A stretch of 37,130 bases of DNA, from IMG/VR virus record IMGVR_UViG_3300023219_000132, positions 1 to 37,130 of that record. One strand, 5' to 3'. The notes under the pieces are model-generated. The model ran no database searches, was not told where the DNA came from, and saw only the letters and a list, made by a program, of their open reading frames with translations. Below, one piece after another: positions 22,789 to 37,130 of the stretch (position 1 is the stretch's first letter; each line of letters opens with the position of its first letter). The DNA comes from a virus. The position numbers and the translations under genes were made by a program.

Positions 22789-23054
22789 GCGGCACCTCTC
22801 TGCTCCGGAGCGACACCGGCATGGGCGGCATAACAAAGCGCGAGCGCTGCGTCGGCGGCGAAGTAAATCAAGGTGGCTTGGTTGGAAACGGTCGGTTCAG
22901 TCATTAGGTCGCGCAGACCAGCAAGAACCGCTTCCAGGCGATCAGTGGCAGCATCCAAGGACTCGTGAAGTGGAACGCCCGCCACCGCCTCAAAGACCTC
23001 GCTGGCGCCACTGGAAGCGAAAGGATGTGCAATCGTTGTGGGCTGATTAGTCAT
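22785..23054 (-). CDS. DUF3077-family protein
   Basis: This protein of 89 residues contains AGVPLHESLDAATDRLEAVL followed by an Ala-rich helix (LIYFAADAALALCYAAHAGV). This is the usual DUF3077 layout (GVP..ALe.A..LL...). Such small proteins are frequent in Pseudomonas genomes and phages, and none has a defined activity. It is a neighbour of a second, similar protein just upstream. Confidence 0.7.
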   Translation of the reverse strand: MTNQPTTIAHPFASSGASEVFEAVAGVPLHESLDAATDRLEAVLAGLRDLMTEPTVSNQATLIYFAADAALALCYAAHAGVAPEQRGAA

Positions 23055-23382
23055 TGCTCACCCCGCCGGCAGCTGCGTGGGCAACGCTCTTCTCTACCGA
23101 CCAGATCAGCGCGTGGACTGTCTCGCCCAGAAACGCGAGAGTCGCCGCGCCATCGCAATACGCCGACTCGCCCAAGTTCAGGCTGTCGTGCAGGTGGTGG
23201 CAAAGCTGGCTCAAACCCGAGGAAAGCGTGCGAGCTGCCCGCAGTGCGTCTTCGGCGTTCGTACCAGGCGCAACGGCGAGCAGTTGAATGCCCCGATTAT
23301 CAATCGGTGTATCGAGGAAGCCCGTCTCGGCGGTAAGGATGGGTTGCGCCGGTGATGGCGCGGTGGTATTTTTTGGGTGCAT
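23047..23382 (-). CDS. DUF3077-like protein, second copy
   Basis: This protein of 111 residues starts at ATG 23382, with GGAGG 8 nt upstream; an in-frame GTG at 23397 is less likely. An N-terminal disordered part is followed by VAPGTNAEDALRAARTLSSG and LCHHLHDSLNLGESAYCDGA, then a final helix with TLAFLGETVHALIWSVEKSV. The layout parallels its downstream neighbour, suggesting an old tandem duplication. It is the first gene after a 150-bp gap in the early operon. Confidence 0.68.
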   Translation of the reverse strand: MHPKNTTAPSPAQPILTAETGFLDTPIDNRGIQLLAVAPGTNAEDALRAARTLSSGLSQLCHHLHDSLNLGESAYCDGAATLAFLGETVHALIWSVEKSVAHAAAGGVSND

Positions 23383-23441
23383 GAAGTCGTCCTCCACAGA
23401 CGAAGATTCAAAAGGTCCCTGCCAGGGGACTGGTTAAGAAG

Positions 23442-25886: not shown

Positions 25887-26640
25887 AGGGTTTTCCGATT
25901 TCAGATCGGAGAACCCTGTCCGGTGCAAGAGCACTGTATGGCCGGGTTAGGCGTGGCGCGGCCCGGCGAGGCAAGGATAGGCCAGGCGAGGGCTGTAATC
26001 AGCGGCGAGTCCGTTCACAGAGCGGGCTTTCCGGTGGCTTCAGTCACCAAGAGGCACGGCATTGCGGGGCAGGCATGGGTGTGGTTTGGCTGGGTATGGC
26101 GTGGCAGGGGCTGACAACAGCGTAATGCCGATTGGCAACAGTCGGTATTGCGGTGTGAAAACACCACACGGCCAGGTTTGGCGAGGCACGTCCTGGCAAG
26201 GCACGCCGAGGCGAGGCAAGGGCTACAACGTAGCGGCCAGCATCTTCGCAGAGGGTGCTTTCCGGTACCGAGTACCACGAGGCAGTGCGAGGCGAGGCTT
26301 GGCGCGGTCGGGCAGAGCGCGGCATGGGCTGATTCAGCGTTCAGCCACTTCGCAAGAGGTGGTTGAACGGTGCGAAAGCATCACGCGGCATAGCTCGGTT
26401 CGGCTTGGCATGGCCGGGCATGGTGTGGTTCGGTCCGGTATGGCAGGGGCTGCTGGTCAGCGTAATGGCCTTTCATTGAGAGGTCATTACGGTGCGAAAG
26501 CGCTATCCGGTAAGGCACTGCTCGGTGCGGCTGGGCACGGCAGGTTAGGGCGGGGTCGGGCAAGGGCGGTAATCCGCACGGGGTCACCAGCGTATCTGGT
26601 GACAACTTGAAAGCATCTTCAATAAGGATGTTTTCAAGTT
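25887..26640 (+). ncRNA. Candidate large structured RNA of repeated hairpin modules
   Basis: This ~750-nt stretch has no credible gene. Type-A hairpins sit at 25887-25917, 26008-26028, 26124-26149, 26239-26259, 26338-26369, 26462-26490 and 26604-26640. Their stems differ in sequence yet pair, and four have the loop TTCNNNNAG (TTCACAGAG, TTCGCAGAG, TTCATTGAG, TTCAATAAG). A type-B hairpin follows the first six (for example GGTGT-GAAA-ACACC 26152-26165, GGTAC-CGA-GTACC 26264-26276, GGTGC-GAAA-GCATC 26369-26382). A small type-C stem joins each pentamer array to the next A hairpin (GCTG/CAGC, GCTA/TAGC, GCG/CGC). Changes on both sides of stems point to selection for pairing. Orientation + is assumed because pL reads through. 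Cas7/RAMP-like and partner genes follow directly. The function is unknown. Confidence 0.6.
25940..26570. repeat. Six arrays of GGNNN pentamers (period 5)
   Basis: Between the hairpin clusters lie arrays at about 25940-25994, 26052-26112, 26170-26224, 26280-26330, 26387-26451 and 26508-26570. In them GG recurs every 5 nt with few phase breaks. In 25940-25994 all 11 successive pentamers begin GG. In 26387-26451 12 of 13 do. The third base is mostly C or T and the last two vary. Most arrays end in GGGCT. A 5-nt period cannot be codon-driven. Confidence 0.85.
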
Positions 26641-26708: not shown

Positions 26709-27275
26709 ATGCAAGTTTTGAAAGTTAAAATCATTGGCACCCGTCCGCTTTTGGTCCATAGCGACGTGTTTGCTGACCCGTTGAATAAGTTGACCAAAGC
26801 GCACAAGCAATTGACCGCGAAGCGCAAAAAGTCTGACGAAGACCATGAGCTTATTGCTCGAAGCGAATGGCGCGGTGGACTTTATTTTGATGAATCCATC
26901 GGCCCCTTCTTGCCCGGTATCAATATTGAGTCCGCACTTGTGGCGGGCGGCAAACTTTCGAAAATGGGAACCCAGCTCAAGCGCTCCGTCGAGATCATGG
27001 ATACCCGCTGCCCGATCATTTACGAAGGCCCGCGCACTGTCGAAGGCCTGTGGGATGAGCAGTTTTACGATGCCCGCTCCGTCAAGGTCGGCACTGCCCG
27101 AATCACGCGATATCGCCCCCTCTTCCGCTCCTGGGCCGTGGTCTGCGAGATCGCCTACGATCAAGAATCCATCGACCGTGACCAGGTGCTGAAATGCCTG
27201 GAGGACGCCGGCCAGTACTGTGGTGTCGGTGACTACCGCCCGAAATTCGGCCGCTTCGCCGTGGAGGTGCTGTGA
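26709..27275 (+). CDS. Cas7/RAMP-like single-domain protein
   Basis: This protein of 188 residues starts at ATG 26709, with AGAGGA 7 nt upstream. Three segments look like the RAMP (Cas7-type) fold: an opening strand and loop VKIIGTRPLLVHSD (about 6-19), FLPGINIESALVAGGK (about 67-82; RAMPs have IPGSSLKGALR), and a C-terminal Gly-rich loop GVGDYRPKFGRFAVEVL (about 172-188; RAMPs have G.G...GFG). No nuclease residues are obvious. Similar phage proteins exist as unnamed hypotheticals. There are no cas genes nearby. It sits directly after the structured repeat region and overlaps the next gene by 1 nt, so the pair is probably a functional unit. RNA binding is inferred from fold only. Confidence 0.6.
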   Translation: MQVLKVKIIGTRPLLVHSDVFADPLNKLTKAHKQLTAKRKKSDEDHELIARSEWRGGLYFDESIGPFLPGINIESALVAGGKLSKMGTQLKRSVEIMDTRCPIIYEGPRTVEGLWDEQFYDARSVKVGTARITRYRPLFRSWAVVCEIAYDQESIDRDQVLKCLEDAGQYCGVGDYRPKFGRFAVEVL

Positions 27276-27754
27276 TGCCTGTAGTTCCGCTCAAGCCGAA
27301 CAGCTGGAGCCTGGACAAGGCCATCGAGCAGTTCCTGGCTGACAAGTTCGAAGACGGCCAGCTCATAAGCCACGCCTGGTTGGAGTGGGCACTCAACCTG
27401 CCGAAGCCAAGCACCGCGAAGGAAATGGTCAACTGTCAGTTCGTGATTCTTGACCGCGTCGAGCAGTTCAAAGAAGCCCTGCTGACTCAGCATCAAATCT
27501 ACATCGTTAGCGTGCGCGGCAAAGGTTACCGGATCGTCCCGCCAAGCGATCAAGCATTCATCGCTGTCGACAACGCCATGCAAGGAGTTCGTCGGGAGTT
27601 CAGCAAGTGCGAGAAGGTCATGAAGAATACTCGACTTGGCGAACTTGATGCCGACCAGATTAAGCGTCATACCGATGCGCAACTGAAAGTATCTGCGATC
27701 GCCGGAATGGTAGGAAAAGGAAAGCGCGAAGTATTCAGCCTGTTCAAGGCATAA
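27275..27754 (+). CDS. Partner protein of the RAMP-like gene, unknown function
   Basis: This protein of 159 residues starts at ATG 27275, sharing one base with the upstream stop (TGATG), with GGAGG 7 nt before it. The N-terminal half is helical (LDKAIEQFLADKFEDGQLIS). In the middle a strand motif reads IYIVSVRGKGYRIVPPSDQA, and the C-terminal part is helical and basic (LKVSAIAGMVGKGKREVFSL). The GYxIVPPxxQ segment recurs in phage proteins I have seen next to the RAMP-like family, so the pair appears conserved. No catalytic motif is seen. Confidence 0.65.
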   Translation: MPVVPLKPNSWSLDKAIEQFLADKFEDGQLISHAWLEWALNLPKPSTAKEMVNCQFVILDRVEQFKEALLTQHQIYIVSVRGKGYRIVPPSDQAFIAVDNAMQGVRREFSKCEKVMKNTRLGELDADQIKRHTDAQLKVSAIAGMVGKGKREVFSLFKA

Positions 27755-27839: not shown

Positions 27840-28235
27840 ATGCTCATGCTCAGCCGCAACATCGGAAAGGCCGTCATCATCGGCGGCAACATCCGGGTCA
27901 CTGTGGCCCATGTAGACGGCTGCCAGGTTCGCCTCGGCATCGAGGCCCCGCGCGGGGTGATCGTTGACCGCGAAGAGATCCACGCCCGCCGCGTGGCTGA
28001 AGGTGCCGTCGAGGAAGCGCCAGCGTTCAGCATCGACGAGCACGTCAAGCTGGTGGCTGATGCCCGCCGGTACCGGTGGCTGCGTGACCGCGAGCGTATC
28101 GAAGATCCCGACGAAGACCTGCTGGTGGTGCGCGGCGACAGCTGGCTCTCTGCTGGAGAGCTGGATCAGGAGATCGACACCGCCCTGCGCCTGGAAGCCT
28201 TGCAACAACAGGTGTTGCTGGAGCAGCAGTCATGA
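27840..28235 (+). CDS. Phage CsrA/RsmA domain fused to a C-terminal extension
   Basis: This protein of 131 residues has GGAG 9 nt before the ATG. Residues 1-50 are a CsrA domain (MLMLSRNIGKAVIIGGNIRV, then VRLGIEAPRGVIVDREEIHA) with the RNA-contacting L4, R6 and R44 present; the usual His43 is Asp. Residues about 65-131 are a separate helical module (LVADARRYRWLRDRERIEDP, LSAGELDQEIDTALRLEALQ) common at the ends of phage proteins. CsrA proteins bind GGA-containing hairpins and block translation. A phage copy could alter host Rsm control. This fusion is about twice the length of host CsrA. Confidence 0.85.
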   Translation: MLMLSRNIGKAVIIGGNIRVTVAHVDGCQVRLGIEAPRGVIVDREEIHARRVAEGAVEEAPAFSIDEHVKLVADARRYRWLRDRERIEDPDEDLLVVRGDSWLSAGELDQEIDTALRLEALQQQVLLEQQS

Positions 28236-28375
28236 GCCAGGCCGGCCTGCTCTTGCTGCTGTGGGATGCCCTGCAGCAGCGCCAAACCACCTTCGGCCAA
28301 ATCGCTGACTTGTCCGCCGCGTGCGGCCTGGACGGGCGCCGGGTGCTGGCCGATCACTTTCGGGGGATAGCATGA
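28232..28375 (+). CDS. Small hypothetical phage protein
   Basis: This protein of 47 residues starts at ATG 28232, overlapping the CsrA-fusion stop by 4 nt, and its own stop overlaps the next start (ATGA). It starts MSQAGLLLLLWDALQQRQTT, with a short Leu-rich helix, and continues FGQIADLSAACGLDGRRVLA. Coupling at both ends supports translation. The function is unknown. Confidence 0.6.
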   Translation: MSQAGLLLLLWDALQQRQTTFGQIADLSAACGLDGRRVLADHFRGIA

Positions 28376-29166
28376 TCAATTTGACCGACAACCTGGCGCA
28401 CCGCGCCCTCTTCACCCTGCCGCCGATCCGTCCGAGCGCAGAGTCTGCGCCAGCAGTCCGGGCTCTGCCCGAGCAGAAGGTCGTCACAGGCGACAAGGAA
28501 GTGGATGCTGTCCTGTGGCTGCGCGACGTAATCAAGACGGGTCAGGCCGGAGCTGTTGCCACTGCTCTGGAAGCAGCCAAGAAGATCAAGACGCCGCTCA
28601 AGGAGGTCGAGCAGCGGTATGTCGACTATGTGAAGCGCACCAGCGGAAACAACCCCTTTGCGGTGATGTTTTCGTACGGGTTTGCGGATCTTGAAGGGCT
28701 GGCCAAGGGTTCGCTGGAGAAGGCGGCCCTGGCATCCGAGGCGCGGGCCCGATTCGAGGGCGAGACGATCTTCGAAGATACGCCCGCCGAGCAGTTCTGC
28801 GAGAAGGCCTTGAAACGCTGCAAGGGCTTCAAAAGCTACTTCGAAAACGACAAGACCCAGGTGGCCAAGCGTTTCCGCAAGCACGCCGATCTGATGCCAA
28901 GCACCCTCGATGACTGCCTGTACGAGATTGCGTACTGGGGCCGGCTGTATGTCTTGCGCCACGCTGCCGGCGAGTGGGGTGATGGGATGCATGAGGCTAT
29001 CGCGCGCGAATGGTTTGTCCAGGGGCTGCTTTCGGAGATCAAGCCGCGCGACGAGGCCGAGGCTCTGCGCGTTCTGGATTACGCCGCACAGTCCGAGAGC
29101 ATTGAGCATGACGGCATGGTGGCCATTGCACGAAACCTCATCGCCTCGGGAGGACTGCCGGCATGA
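28372..29166 (+). CDS. Hypothetical phage protein
   Basis: This protein of 264 residues starts at ATG 28372 (MINLTDNLAHRALFTLPPIR), overlapping the upstream stop by 4 nt. It is soluble and mostly helical, with ERARFEG-like charged stretches and KALKRCKGFKSYFENDKTQV in the middle, and EIAYWGRLYVLRHAAGEWGD towards the end. I know the general type from the early region of Pseudomonas phages but no function. The start was chosen by overlap; the in-frame codons before it overlap the previous gene. Confidence 0.7.
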   Translation: MINLTDNLAHRALFTLPPIRPSAESAPAVRALPEQKVVTGDKEVDAVLWLRDVIKTGQAGAVATALEAAKKIKTPLKEVEQRYVDYVKRTSGNNPFAVMFSYGFADLEGLAKGSLEKAALASEARARFEGETIFEDTPAEQFCEKALKRCKGFKSYFENDKTQVAKRFRKHADLMPSTLDDCLYEIAYWGRLYVLRHAAGEWGDGMHEAIAREWFVQGLLSEIKPRDEAEALRVLDYAAQSESIEHDGMVAIARNLIASGGLPA

Positions 29167-31353: not shown

Positions 31354-33141
31354 ATGTGCGGATTAGCAGGAGAGTTGCGTTTCACCCCTATCGACCAAGC
31401 CCCTCGCCCAGCCGACCTGGCTGCGGTAGAGCGCATCACCCATCACCTGGCGCCACGCGGCCCGGATGCGTGGGGCTTCCATAGCCAAGGCCCGATTGCC
31501 CTTGGCCACCGGCGCCTGAAAATCATGGACTTGTCCGATGGCTCGGCGCAGCCGATGGTCGACAACACCCTGGGCTTGTCACTGGCTTTCAACGGTGCCA
31601 TCTACAACTTCCCCGAACTGCGCCAGGAACTGCAAGACCTGGGCTACAGCTTCTGGTCCGACGGCGATACCGAGGTGCTGCTCAAGGGCTACCACGCCTG
31701 GGGCGCGGCACTGCTGCCCAAGCTCAACGGCATGTTTGCCCTGGCCATCTGGGAGCGCGATAACCAGCGCCTGTTCCTGGCCCGCGACCGCCTCGGCGTG
31801 AAGCCCTTGTACCTGTCGCGCAACGGCGAGCGCCTGCGCTTTGCCTCTACCCTGCCGGCGCTGCTCAAGGGCGGCGACATCGACCCGATGCTCGACCCGG
31901 TGGCGCTCAACCACTACCTGAACTTCCACGCCGTGGTGCCAGCACCGCGCACCCTGCTGGCCAACGTGCAAAAGCTGGAACCCGGCACCTGGATGCGCAT
32001 TGACCGGCATGGCGAAGTAGAGCGCCAGACCTGGTGGCAACTGCAATACGGCGCCAACCCGGACGAGCGCGATCTCGACCTGGAAGGCTGGACCACCCGC
32101 GTGCTCGACGCCACCCGTGACGCCGTGGCCATTCGCCAACGGGCTGCCGTCGACGTGGGTGTGTTGCTGTCCGGCGGGGTCGATTCCAGCCTGCTGGTGG
32201 GCCTGTTGCGCGAAGTGGGCGTGGACGACCTGTCGACCTTCTCCATCGGCTTCGAGGACGCCGGCGGCGAGCGCGGCGACGAGTTCCAGTATTCCGACCT
32301 GATCGCCAAGCACTACGGCACCCGCCATCACCAACTGCGCATTGCCGAACACGAAATCATCGACCAGTTGCCGGCCGCGTTCCGCGCCATGAGCGAGCCG
32401 ATGGTCAGCCACGACTGCATCGCCTTCTACCTGCTGTCGCGGGAAGTGGCCAAGCACTGCAAAGGCGTGCAGAGCGGCCAGGGCGCGGACGAACTGTTCG
32501 CCGGTTACCACTGGTACCCGCAGGTGGCCGGCGCCGAGGATGCCTTTGCCGCCTACCGCGACGCCTTCTTCGACCGCAGCCATGCCGAGTACCGCGATAC
32601 CGTACAGGCCCCTTGGCTGTTGGAAACCGACGCCGCCGGTGACTTCGTGCGCGAGCACTTCGCCCGCCCCGGCGCACGGGACGCGGTGGACAAGGCCTTG
32701 CGCCTGGACAGCACGGTGATGCTGGTCGACGACCCGGTCAAACGGGTGGACAACATGACCATGGCCTGGGGCCTCGAAGCACGCACGCCATTCCTCGACT
32801 ACCGCCTGGTGGAACTGTCGGCACGCATCCCGGCGCGCTTCAAGCTGCCCGACGGCGGCAAGCAGGTGCTCAAGCAGGCAGCACGGCGGGTGATCCCGCA
32901 CGAGGTAATCGACCGCAAAAAGGGCTACTTCCCGGTGCCGGGCCTGAAACACCTGGAAGGTGCCACCCTGGGCTGGGTGCGTGAGCTGCTGACCGACCCC
33001 AGCCAGGACCGTGGGCTGTTCAACCCGGCCATGCTCGACCGCCTGCTGAGCAACCCCCATGGCCAGCTGACACCGCTGCGCGGCTCCAAGCTGTGGCAGC
33101 TGGCGGCGCTGAACCTGTGGCTGAGCGAACAAGGAATCTGA
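31354..33141 (+). CDS. asnO: N-acetylglutaminylglutamine amidotransferase
   Basis: This protein of 595 residues is of the asparagine-synthetase type. The N-terminal class II glutamine amidotransferase domain has Cys2 as nucleophile (MCGLAGELRF) and RGPDAWGFHSQGPIALGHRR. The C-terminal synthetase domain has the PP-loop VLLSGGVDSSLLVGLL (about 269-284) and SGQGADELFAGYHWY. It amidates N-acetylglutaminylglutamine to NAGGN, a cytoplasmic compatible solute made under osmotic stress. The next two genes complete the three-gene cluster. The prophage lies immediately upstream, so its native promoter may be displaced. Confidence 0.93.
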   Translation: MCGLAGELRFTPIDQAPRPADLAAVERITHHLAPRGPDAWGFHSQGPIALGHRRLKIMDLSDGSAQPMVDNTLGLSLAFNGAIYNFPELRQELQDLGYSFWSDGDTEVLLKGYHAWGAALLPKLNGMFALAIWERDNQRLFLARDRLGVKPLYLSRNGERLRFASTLPALLKGGDIDPMLDPVALNHYLNFHAVVPAPRTLLANVQKLEPGTWMRIDRHGEVERQTWWQLQYGANPDERDLDLEGWTTRVLDATRDAVAIRQRAAVDVGVLLSGGVDSSLLVGLLREVGVDDLSTFSIGFEDAGGERGDEFQYSDLIAKHYGTRHHQLRIAEHEIIDQLPAAFRAMSEPMVSHDCIAFYLLSREVAKHCKGVQSGQGADELFAGYHWYPQVAGAEDAFAAYRDAFFDRSHAEYRDTVQAPWLLETDAAGDFVREHFARPGARDAVDKALRLDSTVMLVDDPVKRVDNMTMAWGLEARTPFLDYRLVELSARIPARFKLPDGGKQVLKQAARRVIPHEVIDRKKGYFPVPGLKHLEGATLGWVRELLTDPSQDRGLFNPAMLDRLLSNPHGQLTPLRGSKLWQLAALNLWLSEQGI

Positions 33142-33144
33142 CCG

Positions 33145-34890
33145 ATGAAAGCCCATGAAATCGCTTACGGGCAGCGCCTGCTGCGCGGCCAGGCGCCGTC
33201 CTATGAGCGCCTGCAGGCGCGCCTGGCCGGCGACGGCAGCCAGCCCCACGACCAGCCGCGAGCCGTGCACTGCGGCTGGGGCCGGCTGCTGATCGGCCAC
33301 ACCTACCCCGACCCGGTTTCGCTGGCCGAGGACTTGCTCGACGAATGCCCCGGCGAGCGCGATATCGCCCTGTACGTGGCCGCGCCCCAGCAATTGCTGG
33401 CCCAGGCCCCACAGCAGTTGTTCCTGGACCCGTCCGACACCTTGCGCCTGTGGTTCACCGACTACCGCCCGGCGCAGCGGGTGTTCCGCGGCTTCCGCGT
33501 GCGCCGGGCGCAGAACCCCGCCGACTGGCAGGCGATCAACACCCTGTACCAGGCACGCAGCATGCTGCCGGTGGACGCCGAACTACTGACCCCTCGGCAC
33601 CTGGGCGGCCCGGTGTACTGGCTGGCCGAAGACGAAGACAGCGGCGCTGTGATCGGCAGCGTCATGGGCCTGAACCACGCCAAGGCGTTCGATGACCCTG
33701 AGCATGGCAGCAGCCTGTGGTGCCTGGCCGTGGACCCGCACTGCACCCGCCCAGGCGTGGGTGAGGTGCTGGTGCGCCACCTGATCGAGCACTTCATGAG
33801 CCGGGGCCTGGCCTACCTCGACCTGTCGGTGCTGCACGACAACCGCCAGGCCAAGCGCCTGTACCAGAAGCTGGGCTTTCGCAACCTGCCCACCTTTGCG
33901 GTCAAGCGCAAAAATGGCATCAACGAGCAGTTGTTCCTCGGGCCCGGGCCGCAAGCCGACCTTAACCCCTATGCCCGCATCATCGTCGACGAGGCGTTGC
34001 GCCGGGGCATCGAAGTACAGGTGGATGACGCCGCTGGCGGCCTGTTCACGCTGAGCCTGGGTGGGCGGCGCATTCGCTGCCGTGAATCGCTCAGCGACCT
34101 GACCAGTGCCGTGACCATGACCCTGTGCCAAGACAAGCGCCTGACCCAGCACGCCCTGCACAACGCTGGGCTGCAGGTGCCGGCGCAGCAACTGGCGGGC
34201 AATGCCGACGACAACCTGGCGTTTCTCGACGAGCATGGCGCAGTCGTGGTCAAGCCGGTCGACGGTGAGCAAGGCCAGGGCGTGGCGGTGAACCTGACCT
34301 GCATCGACGACATCACCCGCGCCGTGGCGCACGCCCGCCAGTTCGACAGCCGCGTGTTGCTGGAAAGCTTCCATGCCGGCTTCGACCTGCGCATCGTGGT
34401 GATCGGCTACGAAGTGGTGGCCGCCGCCATCCGTCACCCGGCGCAGGTGCTGGGCGATGGCAAGCACAGTGTGCGCCAGTTGATCGAGGCCCAGAGCCGC
34501 CGGCGCCAGGCCGCCACCAGTGGCGAAAGCCGCATCCCGCTGGACGACGAAACCGAGCGCACCTTGCGCGCGGCGGGCTTGGGCTATGACGACGTGCTGC
34601 CTGCCGGCCAGCGTCTGGCCGTGCGGCGCACCGCCAATCTGCACACCGGCGGCACCCTGGAAGACGTCACCGAGCGCCTGCACCCGGTACTGGCCGACGC
34701 TGCTGTGCGCGCTGCTCGGGCGCTGGAAATTCCGGTGGTGGGGCTGGACTTCATGGTGCGTGACGCCGGGCAGCCGGAGTACGTGATCATCGAGGCCAAC
34801 GAACGTGCCGGCCTGGCCAACCATGAACCGCAGCCAACGGCCGAGCGCTTTATCGACTTGCTGTTTCCGCATAGCCGACCTTTGGCCTGA
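33145..34890 (+). CDS. ngs: N-acetylglutaminylglutamine synthetase
   Basis: This two-domain protein has 581 residues. The N-terminal GNAT acetyltransferase (about 110-275) contains LWCLAVDPHCTRPGVGEVLV (acetyl-CoA site) and HDNRQAKRLYQKLGFRN. The C-terminal ATP-grasp ligase (about 300-575) contains HGAVVVKPVDGEQGQGVAVN and the metal site VIIEANERAGLANHE. It makes acetylated Gln-Gln, the substrate of the preceding amidotransferase. It starts 3 nt after the asnO stop, so the two are co-transcribed. Confidence 0.93.
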   Translation: MKAHEIAYGQRLLRGQAPSYERLQARLAGDGSQPHDQPRAVHCGWGRLLIGHTYPDPVSLAEDLLDECPGERDIALYVAAPQQLLAQAPQQLFLDPSDTLRLWFTDYRPAQRVFRGFRVRRAQNPADWQAINTLYQARSMLPVDAELLTPRHLGGPVYWLAEDEDSGAVIGSVMGLNHAKAFDDPEHGSSLWCLAVDPHCTRPGVGEVLVRHLIEHFMSRGLAYLDLSVLHDNRQAKRLYQKLGFRNLPTFAVKRKNGINEQLFLGPGPQADLNPYARIIVDEALRRGIEVQVDDAAGGLFTLSLGGRRIRCRESLSDLTSAVTMTLCQDKRLTQHALHNAGLQVPAQQLAGNADDNLAFLDEHGAVVVKPVDGEQGQGVAVNLTCIDDITRAVAHARQFDSRVLLESFHAGFDLRIVVIGYEVVAAAIRHPAQVLGDGKHSVRQLIEAQSRRRQAATSGESRIPLDDETERTLRAAGLGYDDVLPAGQRLAVRRTANLHTGGTLEDVTERLHPVLADAAVRAARALEIPVVGLDFMVRDAGQPEYVIIEANERAGLANHEPQPTAERFIDLLFPHSRPLA

Positions 34891-34904
34891 CAACTGCTCG
34901 GCGT

Positions 34905-35025
34905 TTTGTAGGAGCGGCCTTGTGTCGCGAAAGGGCCGCAAAGCGGCCCCAGCAATCTAAGCAGCGAAGCTGAAATCCTGGGGGCGCTTCGCACCCCTTT
35001 CGCGACACAAGGCCGCTCCTACAAA
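34905..35025. repeat. REP-like inverted pair (BIME)
   Basis: A 31-bp sequence (34905-34935) is repeated as its exact reverse complement at 34995-35025. It contains TGTAGGAGCGGCCTTGTGTC, the P. putida-type REP pattern. A small GGGCCGC-AAA-GCGGCCC hairpin follows the first copy. The pair lies between the synthetase and peptidase genes of the NAGGN operon and may stabilise or separate the mRNA. Confidence 0.85.
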
Positions 35026-35070
35026 GACCGCGCCACAGCCTGGAATATCAACCCGACCGGAGGCCTGGAC

Positions 35071-36255
35071 ATGTCCGAACGACTCCCCGAACCCGATCTC
35101 GACTACCTCAAACGTGTGCTCCTGGAAATGCTCGCCATCCCCAGCCCCACCGGGTTCACCGATACCATCGTGCGCTACGTTGCCGAACGCCTGGACGAAC
35201 TGGGCATCCCCTTCGAGCTGACCCGCCGTGGCACCATCCGCGCCACCCTCAAGGGCCGGCAAACTTCACCCGACCGGGCCGTGTCCGCCCACCTCGACAC
35301 CATCGGCGCCAGTGTGCGCCAGCTGCAGGACAACGGCCGCCTGGCCCTGGCGCCAGTGGGTTGCTGGTCCAGCCGCTTCGCCGAAGGCAGTCGCGTCAGC
35401 GTGTTCACCGATACCGGGGTGTTCCGCGGCAGCGTTCTGCCGCTGATGGCCAGCGGGCATGCCTTCAACACCGCCATCGACCAGATGCCTATCAGCTGGG
35501 ATCATGTGGAAGTACGCCTGGACGCCTACTGCGCCACCCGCGCCGACTGCGAGGCACTGGGCGTGAGCATCGGTGACTTCGTGGCCTTCGACCCTTTGCC
35601 CGAGTTCACCGAAAGCGGCCACATCAGCGCCCGCCATCTGGACGACAAGGCTGGCGTAGCCGCATTGCTGGCAGCATTGAAGGCCGTGGTGGAAAGCGGC
35701 CGGCAACCTTTGATCGATTGCCACCCGCTGTTCACCATCACCGAAGAAACCGGCTCAGGGGCAGCCGGTGCCCTGCCTTGGGACGTCAGCGAGTTCGTCG
35801 GCATCGACATCGCCCCGGTGGCGCCCGGGCAGGCGTCCAGCGAGCATGCCGTGAGCGTGGCCATGCAGGACTCGTCGGGGCCTTACGACTACCACCTGTC
35901 CCGGCACCTGTTGAAACTGGCCGGCGACCACGACTTGCCCGTGCGGCGTGACCTGTTCCGCTATTACTTCAGCGACGCCCATTCGGCCGTGACGGCGGGG
36001 CACGATATTCGCACTGCGCTGGTGGCGTTTGGCTGCGATGCCACCCATGGGTACGAGCGTACCCATATCGACAGCCTGGCAGCGCTGAGCCGGTTGTTGT
36101 CGGCGTACCTGTTGAGCCCACCGGTGTTCGCCAGCGATTCGCAACCGGCCAATGCGTCGCTTGAACGCTTCAGCCATCAGCTGGAGCATGATGCGCAGAT
36201 GGAGAGCGATACGCGGGTGCCGACGGTGGATAGCCTGGTTGGCAATAAAGGCTGA
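35071..36255 (+). CDS. M42-family peptidase of the NAGGN cluster
   Basis: This protein of 394 residues has GGAGG 8 nt before ATG 35071. The metal and catalytic residues of M42/M18-M20-type peptidases are in place: VSAHLDTIGA, SARHLDDKAGVAALL, TITEETGSGAAGALP, VGIDIAP, and a late DATHGYERTHIDSLAAL. It is the third gene of the conserved NAGGN trio (osmoprotectant-system M42 peptidase) and may process or recycle the peptide. The REP pair separates it from the two biosynthetic genes. Confidence 0.9.
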   Translation: MSERLPEPDLDYLKRVLLEMLAIPSPTGFTDTIVRYVAERLDELGIPFELTRRGTIRATLKGRQTSPDRAVSAHLDTIGASVRQLQDNGRLALAPVGCWSSRFAEGSRVSVFTDTGVFRGSVLPLMASGHAFNTAIDQMPISWDHVEVRLDAYCATRADCEALGVSIGDFVAFDPLPEFTESGHISARHLDDKAGVAALLAALKAVVESGRQPLIDCHPLFTITEETGSGAAGALPWDVSEFVGIDIAPVAPGQASSEHAVSVAMQDSSGPYDYHLSRHLLKLAGDHDLPVRRDLFRYYFSDAHSAVTAGHDIRTALVAFGCDATHGYERTHIDSLAALSRLLSAYLLSPPVFASDSQPANASLERFSHQLEHDAQMESDTRVPTVDSLVGNKG

Positions 36256-36261
36256 AGGCCC

Positions 36262-36282
36262 TGGGGCTGTTATGCAGCCCCA
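36262..36282 (+). terminator. Hairpin after NAGGN operon
   Basis: TGGGGCTG-TTATG-CAGCCCCA is an 8-bp perfect stem 6 nt beyond the peptidase stop. It is followed by AAACTCG rather than a T-run, so it is at best a weak terminator or an mRNA-stabilising hairpin. Confidence 0.4.
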
Positions 36283-36335
36283 AAACTCGAATGTTTCGCG
36301 TAGCATGGCCACACCTACTTCAGACACCACCCACC

Positions 36336-36563
36336 ATGCTGATCCCCTACGAGCAACTGCAAGCCGAAACCCTGACCCGCCTGATCGAGGACTTCGTCAC
36401 CCGCGACGGCACCGACAACGGCGACGACACCCCGCTGGAAACCCGTGTGCTGCGGGTGCGCCAGGCCCTGGCCAAAGGCCAGGCGTTCATCCTGTTCGAC
36501 CCGGAAAGCCAGCAGTGCCAGTTGCTGGCCAAGCACGATGTGCCCCGTGAGCTGCTCGACTAG
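36336..36563 (+). CDS. yheU: YheU-family protein
   Basis: This protein of 75 residues starts MLIPYEQLQAETLTRLIEDF, then VTRDGTDNGDDTPLETRVLR and VRQALAKGQAFILFDPESQQ. This closely follows the UPF0270/YheU family, whose biochemical role is unknown. It is host chromosomal. Its TAG stop overlaps the stop of the opposite-strand csrA paralogue in a shared CTAG. Confidence 0.92.
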   Translation: MLIPYEQLQAETLTRLIEDFVTRDGTDNGDDTPLETRVLRVRQALAKGQAFILFDPESQQCQLLAKHDVPRELLD

Positions 36564-36742
36564 CAGCTCTTGCCTTGTTTGGCCTCCTGGATGCGCTTGT
36601 ATACCTCGGCCCGATGCACCGGGACCTCGCGCGGCGCATCCACGCCAAAGCGCACCACCCCCTCACGGGTTTCCACCACCCTGATGCGAATATCATCGCC
36701 AATCACGATGGTCTCACCCACTTCGCGTCCTATTACCAGCAT
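36560..36742 (-). CDS. rsmI: CsrA/RsmA-family translational regulator (RsmI-type)
   Basis: This protein of 60 residues starts at ATG 36742 (MLVIGREVGETIVIGDDIRI), then VVRFGVDAPREVPVHRAEVY. The RNA-binding R6 and R44 and the VHRAE motif are present. MLVIGREVGE differs from the standard RsmA opening (MLILTRR) and matches the third Pseudomonas paralogue, RsmI, so the gene name is a likely but not certain identification. It represses mRNAs with GGA hairpins. A phage-borne CsrA fusion lies 8 kb away. Confidence 0.85.
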   Translation of the reverse strand: MLVIGREVGETIVIGDDIRIRVVETREGVVRFGVDAPREVPVHRAEVYKRIQEAKQGKSC

Positions 36743-36862
36743 GGTCCGGTCCTCCACCGAAAGGGAAAACCGGAGCCTGCCGTGTCGGCATTCCCCTACT
36801 CAATAGCTCTGCAGTGAATCAGAAGAACCCTACTCCGCCAGGTAAAATCTCCTACAGATTAT

Positions 36863-37130
36863 TCATCGCGCCTGGGCCTTGGTGCGCATTTTCACCGCCA
36901 TTTCCGCCATCTCGTCATACAGCCGCTCGGGGGCCTGGCGCTTCAATTGCCAGGCTTGGCGCCCTGCTTCGTGGGGCAGTATCAGAAACTCACCCGCGGC
37001 GACCTGCTGATGGATGTAATCGGCAATGTCCGCCGCGCTGATCGGCGAGCCTTCCAACAGCTTGCCAACCTGCGCCTTCATCGCCGGGTTCGGCCCACGG
37101 AACGAGTCCAGCAGGTTGGTCTGGAAGAAC
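36863..37130 (-). CDS. Short-chain dehydrogenase-like protein, partial (N-terminus outside window)
   Basis: The frame is open from the right edge to TGA at 36863. The visible end has 88 residues: FFQTNLLDSFRGPNPAMKAQ, then LLEGSPISAADIADYIHQQV and GEFLILPHEAGRQAWQLKRQ. The pattern of P.N..L......P...A..IAD.I......GEFLILPH is typical of the C-terminus of SDR-family NAD(P)H oxidoreductases. The cofactor and Tyr/Lys active-site region is not in the window. An internal ATG at 37081 is probably not the start. Confidence 0.65.
   Translation of the reverse strand, partial: FFQTNLLDSFRGPNPAMKAQVGKLLEGSPISAADIADYIHQQVAAGEFLILPHEAGRQAWQLKRQAPERLYDEMAEMAVKMRTKAQAR

Follow-up and report, generated by a model that had tools for sequence, protein, structure and literature searches.

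The locus and its phage setting

The window analysed here is the whole 37,130-nt stretch of the IMG/VR virus record IMGVR_UViG_3300023219_000132. An open reading frame with its ATG at 26709 and its stop codon ending at 27275 encodes a protein of 188 amino acids, which sequence comparison assigns to the named family Vipr. The stop codon is overlapped by 1 nt by an accessory gene, vap, and the ~600 bp upstream of vipr, overlooked in an earlier note on this DNA, consists of six GGYNN repeat arrays. Together they form a vrRNA-like array with six guides (25940-26603), directly upstream of vipr. The features are as follows, with each guide given by its NN units and the last unit in parentheses.

25887-25939, + strand: possible leader or vrRNA remnant, a tail-like hairpin and a GGTGCAAGAGCAC hairpin before the first guide, in the element order seen between the other guides
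25940-25989, + strand: v1 guide, CG TA GT GC CC GA AA TA CA (GA)
25990-26035, + strand: v1 tail, GGGCTG..CAGCG stem and variable hairpin (alignment, covariation)
26053-26107, + strand: v2 guide, AC AT GG AG TG GT TT TG AT GT (AG)
26108-26153, + strand: v2 tail (alignment, covariation)
26170-26219, + strand: v3 guide, CA TT GA AC CT AA AC GA GA (AA)
26220-26265, + strand: v3 tail (alignment, covariation)
26281-26325, + strand: v4 guide, AG GA GA TT GC CG AG GC (AT)
26326-26371, + strand: v4 tail (alignment, covariation)
26387-26446, + strand: v5 guide, AT TC TC TT AT CG AT GT TC CC AT (AG)
26447-26491, + strand: v5 tail (alignment, covariation)
26509-26563, + strand: v6 guide, AA AC TC GC TG AC AG AG GG CG (AA)
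26564-26603, + strand: v6 tail, of a different class (GGGCGG..CCGC), last of the array in relatives too
26709-27275, + strand: vipr, predicted 188-aa RAMP-fold guide-RNA-binding protein (phmmer, PHROGs, fold model)
26742-26770, - strand: best self-match of v6, inside its own vipr, 17 of 20 guide bases and hence three mismatches
27275-27754, + strand: vap, accessory gene, 159 aa (phrog_5926)

The phage genes include a CI-type repressor, a sigma-like gene, a DnaB/DnaC module, an HK97-type head, a tape measure and an integrase. The right flank (31354-37130) is Pseudomonas chromosome, with a best identity of 92% to a Pseudomonas genome, and the sequence places the virus in that chromosome as a prophage. 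The chromosomal flank carries an asparagine-synthase-like operon, and the host csrA lies in it at 36560-36757 on the - strand.

Vipr, vap and the absence of CRISPR components

The earlier note had read a RAMP fold from three motifs, and these are present where it placed them: PLLVHS at residues 13-18, FLPGINIESAL at 67-77 and GVGDYRPKFGRF at 172-183. An alignment of 14 homologues showed GTRPLL, GP..PG.N.E and CG.GD.RPKFGRF to be nearly or fully invariant, and a glycine-rich stretch, CGVGDYRPKFGRF, to be conserved. Near-invariance of the three motifs indicates that they are under selection and not a product of chance. A phmmer search of the PDB returned a single match, 36pp_D ("SUSP1 Vipr protein"), with an E value of 1.8e-52 along the entire length. 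Relatives were found by tblastn in 145 phage records, including Felixounavirus (46-47% identity), a Pseudomonas aeruginosa phage, and Mycobacterium and Gordonia phages. PHROGs assigns Vipr to phrog_4652, whose function is given there as unknown, and no model in Pfam, NCBIfam or PADLOC matched it.

The AlphaFold2 model of Vipr was built on a 15-sequence alignment; the best of five models had a pLDDT of 82.5 and the others ranged down to 46.3. Against the PDB, every one of the top 50 entries by Z was a CRISPR RAMP or an effector complex, with Csm3/Cas7 first (Z 9.8, rmsd 3.3, 147 residues, 12% identity), and the best Foldseek E value, again to CRISPR RAMPs, was 1.6e-5. Structural comparison of the model thus bears out the suggested fold, and Vipr is predicted to be a RAMP protein of the CRISPR type.

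VIPR systems were described in a recent preprint as a Vipr protein, a vap gene and vrRNAs of alternating GGY and NN with a structured 3' tail, in which the NN dinucleotides pair with DNA and one base is skipped between pairs (PMC13142463, bioRxiv 2026). The systems reported, from Escherichia phage SUSP1 and a Pseudomonas fulva prophage, are both of type II and act by transcriptional repression, with targets in satellites, in other VIPR loci and in the regulators of lysis and lysogeny of prophages (PMC13142463). Type II systems have 9-16 GGY/NN repeats per vrRNA and an invariable structured 3' tail, a Vipr with a RAMP fold that has an RRM core, a G-loop and a thumb, and a vap product described as "predicted DNA-binding" (PMC13142463).

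The model of the vap product has an N-terminal, weakly OmpR-like winged helix and a C-terminal helical hairpin. A fold search gave no significant structural match for it, the best Foldseek hits being the OmpR-type DNA-binding domains of CadC and NsrR at an E value of 0.1. This weak likeness in the model is in line with the DNA-binding function predicted in the preprint (PMC13142463). Homologues of vap follow vipr in all VIPR loci compared, and the gene next to vipr in Felixounavirus is 28-29% identical to vap. A PADLOC match of vap to SIR2 (16 bits) was weak and was taken as noise.

The earlier note had also held that neither a CRISPR array nor another Cas protein is present and that the fold is used outside CRISPR. 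Both points held up in what was searched. Rfam gave 0 matches, none for the vrRNAs either, a tandem-repeat scan detected no CRISPR-like arrays and no identical repeats with spacers, and PADLOC identified no Cas protein among the 12 phage proteins tested; no multi-gene cas operon was found. The sequence family is Vipr, and it stands with a GGY-NN guide array. What did not survive is the description of the protein as solitary, as vap adjoins it downstream and six guide RNAs lie directly upstream.

The guide array and its tails

A scan of the 37 kb window for GGYNN runs yielded six between 25940 and 26563, each of them on the + strand, and elsewhere one weak run inside a coding gene. The six arrays hold 9-12 GGY/NN units each, and every run is followed by a GGGCTG-like tail. 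Among 25 closely related loci, which were retrieved by protein, nearly all have several GGYNN arrays just upstream of vipr, and the tail of the last vrRNA in each locus is of a different class. In the Felixounavirus VpaE1 locus the arrays number five, of which three precede the vipr-vap pair and two follow it.

Alignment of 30 tails supported two helices, in which 95.6% of the pair cells are standard, against 37-54% with slid partners. Both sides have changed in 11 of the 16 pairs, and the tail hairpin varies in sequence while its pairing is kept. From the element order, the segment at 25887-25939 is possibly a leader involved in processing or the remnant of a lost vrRNA. Scans for sigma-70 consensus promoters and terminators around the array gave no more than chance.

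Decoding of the guides

We decoded the guides by the published 1-nt-skip rule (PMC13142463) and scanned IMG/VR for the exact patterns. The last NN unit was left out of decoding; it is AA in 44 of 69 guides, and only 41% of its bases match the targets. All six guides have exact 1-nt-skip targets in other mobile elements, with 12 exact IMG/VR stretches for v1, 3 for v2, 22 for v3, 27 for v4, 4 for v5 and 10 for v6. The skip base falls on the third (wobble) codon position in five of the six guides (v2-v6). In the v1 target, which spans a start codon, the skip base falls outside the wobble position.

The target of v1 is the start region of an early gene (MSHPKNTT..) in related Pseudomonas prophages; one of two such genes tested weakly matched phrog_14643, to which the gene at 23050-23397 in the window also belongs. 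Guide v2 matches the beginning of an ORF6N anti-repressor gene (about codons 5-14), v3 the HK97-type capsid gene of capsid-forming satellite-like elements, v5 the 5' end of csrA-like genes in related phages, and v6 vipr codons 12-21 (RPLLVHADVF) in sibling VIPR phages. Guide v4 matches the ALRANSSL codons of a gene in Pseudomonas genomes and viral contigs that has no Pfam match and that, from a motif, we take to be Icd/Ash-like. Because just 16 bases are fixed by v4, chance probably accounts for some of the 27 matches in viruses, and those outside the ALRANSSL gene were set aside as probable chance matches. No v4 target was found within the elements targeted by v3.

Related loci carry variants of these guides. 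In L008 (9584-9638), a v2 variant with one base changed (AT to AC) fits anti-repressors reading LPVVEY and not LPIVEY. A guide in L014 (9689-9738) opens with the same eight NN units as v4 and ends differently; as the start is shared and the end is not, guides seem to move or recombine between phages.

Controls on the gapped code

Across all loci, 28 of the 69 unique guides have a target with 0-1 mismatches at skip 1, and the same guides gave none at skip 0, at skip 2, or in shuffled or reversed order. A reading at skip 3 returned only the array itself and was discarded. As the window's own guides had served to retrieve part of this DNA, a second test took the protein-selected loci only and left those guides out. 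This gave 8/63 guides with such targets, against 0, 0 and 2/315 shuffles, a weaker support than that from the full set. Among 298 Pseudomonas genomes there are 18 exact matches to the v4 pattern and 2 to the v3 pattern, and 0 to the backward version of either. Units that depart from GGY match like canonical ones (91/92 against 439/450 bases), a comparison that is conditional on good targets having been picked.

Related phages and satellite-like elements

Several contigs are matched by more than one guide: v1 and v2 in L028, v1 and v5 in L029 and L036, v2 and v6 in the L009/L089 contig, and v5 and v6 in the L010/L091 contig. The contigs of v1, v2, v5 and v6 are related Pseudomonas phages. One of the target phages has an integrase 91% identical to that of the window phage, one a CI repressor 97% identical and one an identical DnaB. 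Judged by this kinship, the phages targeted are close competitors.

Capsid-forming satellites (cf-PICI) are elements of about 10-15 kb with an integrase, primase, capsid, portal and terminase and with no tail genes. The elements targeted by v3 are 10-13 kb long, and their connector and portal proteins resemble those of the window phage. L041 carries an integrase, a primase/helicase, an HNH gene, a portal and both terminase subunits, L060 an integrase and L040 a capsid. No tail genes were evident in the ORF lists of L041 and L060, the two inspected. By gene content, the inspected v3 contigs have the layout of capsid-forming satellites, and we call them satellite-like. A sibling guide, of L006, matches the portal gene of v3-targeted elements at 21 of 22 bases; among the guides of other loci, one matches the v3 satellites at 1 mismatch and two at 2. 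So few near-matches are only suggestive of satellite targeting by sibling guides. The window's gene at 28321-29163 (phrog_6204, function unknown there) has a 48% identical homologue in the satellite-like L060 (3413-4324).

Self and non-self

The window's own copies of the targets differ from the guides. Against its own homologous gene v1 has five mismatches, and against the host csrA in the flank v5 matches at 17 of 22 bases, again five mismatches. The sibling vipr reading VHADVF is matched exactly by v6, whereas the window's own vipr, reading VHSDVF, is not. These differences suggest that the guides might discriminate self from non-self. In the reverse direction, 5/63 sibling guides match the window at two mismatches, against 1/252 shuffles. 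A phage CsrA-like regulator (27840-28232) lies right behind the VIPR locus, and v5 aims at the csrA-like genes of sibling phages.

Interpretation and alternatives

Taken together, family membership, the predicted fold and the guide array make it very probable that this temperate Pseudomonas phage carries a VIPR system of type II. The system type is already known from the 2026 preprint, and what is new here is a further member, decoded. By the mechanism proposed there (PMC13142463), Vipr would bind each vrRNA, in which the GGY of each repeat would stay unpaired and the NN units would each pair with two bases of duplex DNA, skipping one base between pairs. The bound complex would then block transcription, with vap helping (PMC13142463).

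In this prophage, the system would repress genes of related prophages with which it competes for a host, namely their regulators (csrA-like, anti-repressor), their vipr and an early gene. Also repressed would be the Icd/Ash-like gene and, in satellites that would use the phage's tails, the capsid gene, and the phage's own copies would differ enough to escape matching. From the targets we infer that competition with related prophages and satellites is its most likely purpose. A fuller reading, to which we give about an even chance, is that the Pseudomonas prophage VIPR fights on two fronts: rival prophages, through their regulators and vipr, and, together with its siblings, tail-taking capsid-forming satellites, through their capsid and portal genes. 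Guide variants would track amino-acid changes in the target by altering single bases of their NN units, the last NN would be a near-constant spacer that specifies nothing, and non-GGY units would still be read in register.

The main role might be thought to be regulatory, aimed at the host or at the phage itself (for instance the host csrA or the phage's own vipr), in place of inter-phage conflict, as v5 matches the adjacent host csrA at 17/22 bases and v6 its own vipr at 17/20. The exact matches of these guides, however, lie in the csrA-like and vipr genes of other phages, the own and host copies having 3-5 mismatches, and exact matches in mobile elements exist for the remaining four guides too, which makes such a role very unlikely. 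Even less credence can be given to a solitary RAMP relative, such as an RNA-binding regulator, beside unrelated repeats that are decaying or regulatory DNA. It would accord with the lack of a model for Vipr in Pfam, NCBIfam and PADLOC, but arrays stand upstream of vipr in nearly all relatives, the tails covary, the guides have specific targets under the skip rule, and vrRNAs co-purify with the Vipr homologues of SUSP1 and P. fulva (PMC13142463).

That the protein is the remnant of a diverged Class 1 CRISPR-Cas effector is a negligible prospect: closeness of the RAMP fold to Csm3 speaks for it, and the lack of CRISPR repeats and of any other Cas protein found, an identity of about 12% to Csm3 and the strong sequence kinship to phage Vipr speak against it.

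Relation to known systems

The locus resembles the type II VIPR systems of SUSP1 and P. fulva (PMC13142463; PDB 36pp) in its Vipr homologue (E 1.8e-52), the downstream vap, the GGY/NN vrRNAs with a structured tail, and the 1-nt-skip targets in phages, satellites and other VIPR loci. All six vrRNAs are upstream of vipr here, whereas SUSP1 has one upstream and three downstream, and the target set is its own, including the capsid gene of capsid-forming satellite-like elements. A VIPR-like locus in Pseudomonas phage LESphi2 has a Vipr 51.8% identical and three vrRNAs between a sigma-like gene and vipr. It differs in having fewer and different guides and a vap only 32% identical, and its proteins are annotated as hypothetical.

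With the CRISPR RAMPs Csm3/Cas7, the locus shares the protein fold (Z 9.8) and a guide RNA that is constant in one part and variable in another. Here, in contrast, there are no CRISPR repeats and no spacer acquisition genes, the code is noncontiguous and the identity is about 12%. TIGR-Tas (PMC12045711), as far as its description goes, is likewise carried by phages and directed to DNA by RNA guides, which it keeps in a tandem interspaced array; its protein family and the design of its guides are different.

VIPR, whose guides follow a gapped code, has only recently been proposed as a relative of CRISPR effectors and may be ancestral to them. The window independently supports this code in the Pseudomonas clade, with controls. 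It provides a complete six-guide array decoded, with natural targets that can be named, satellite-like elements among them, and that are open to experimental testing.
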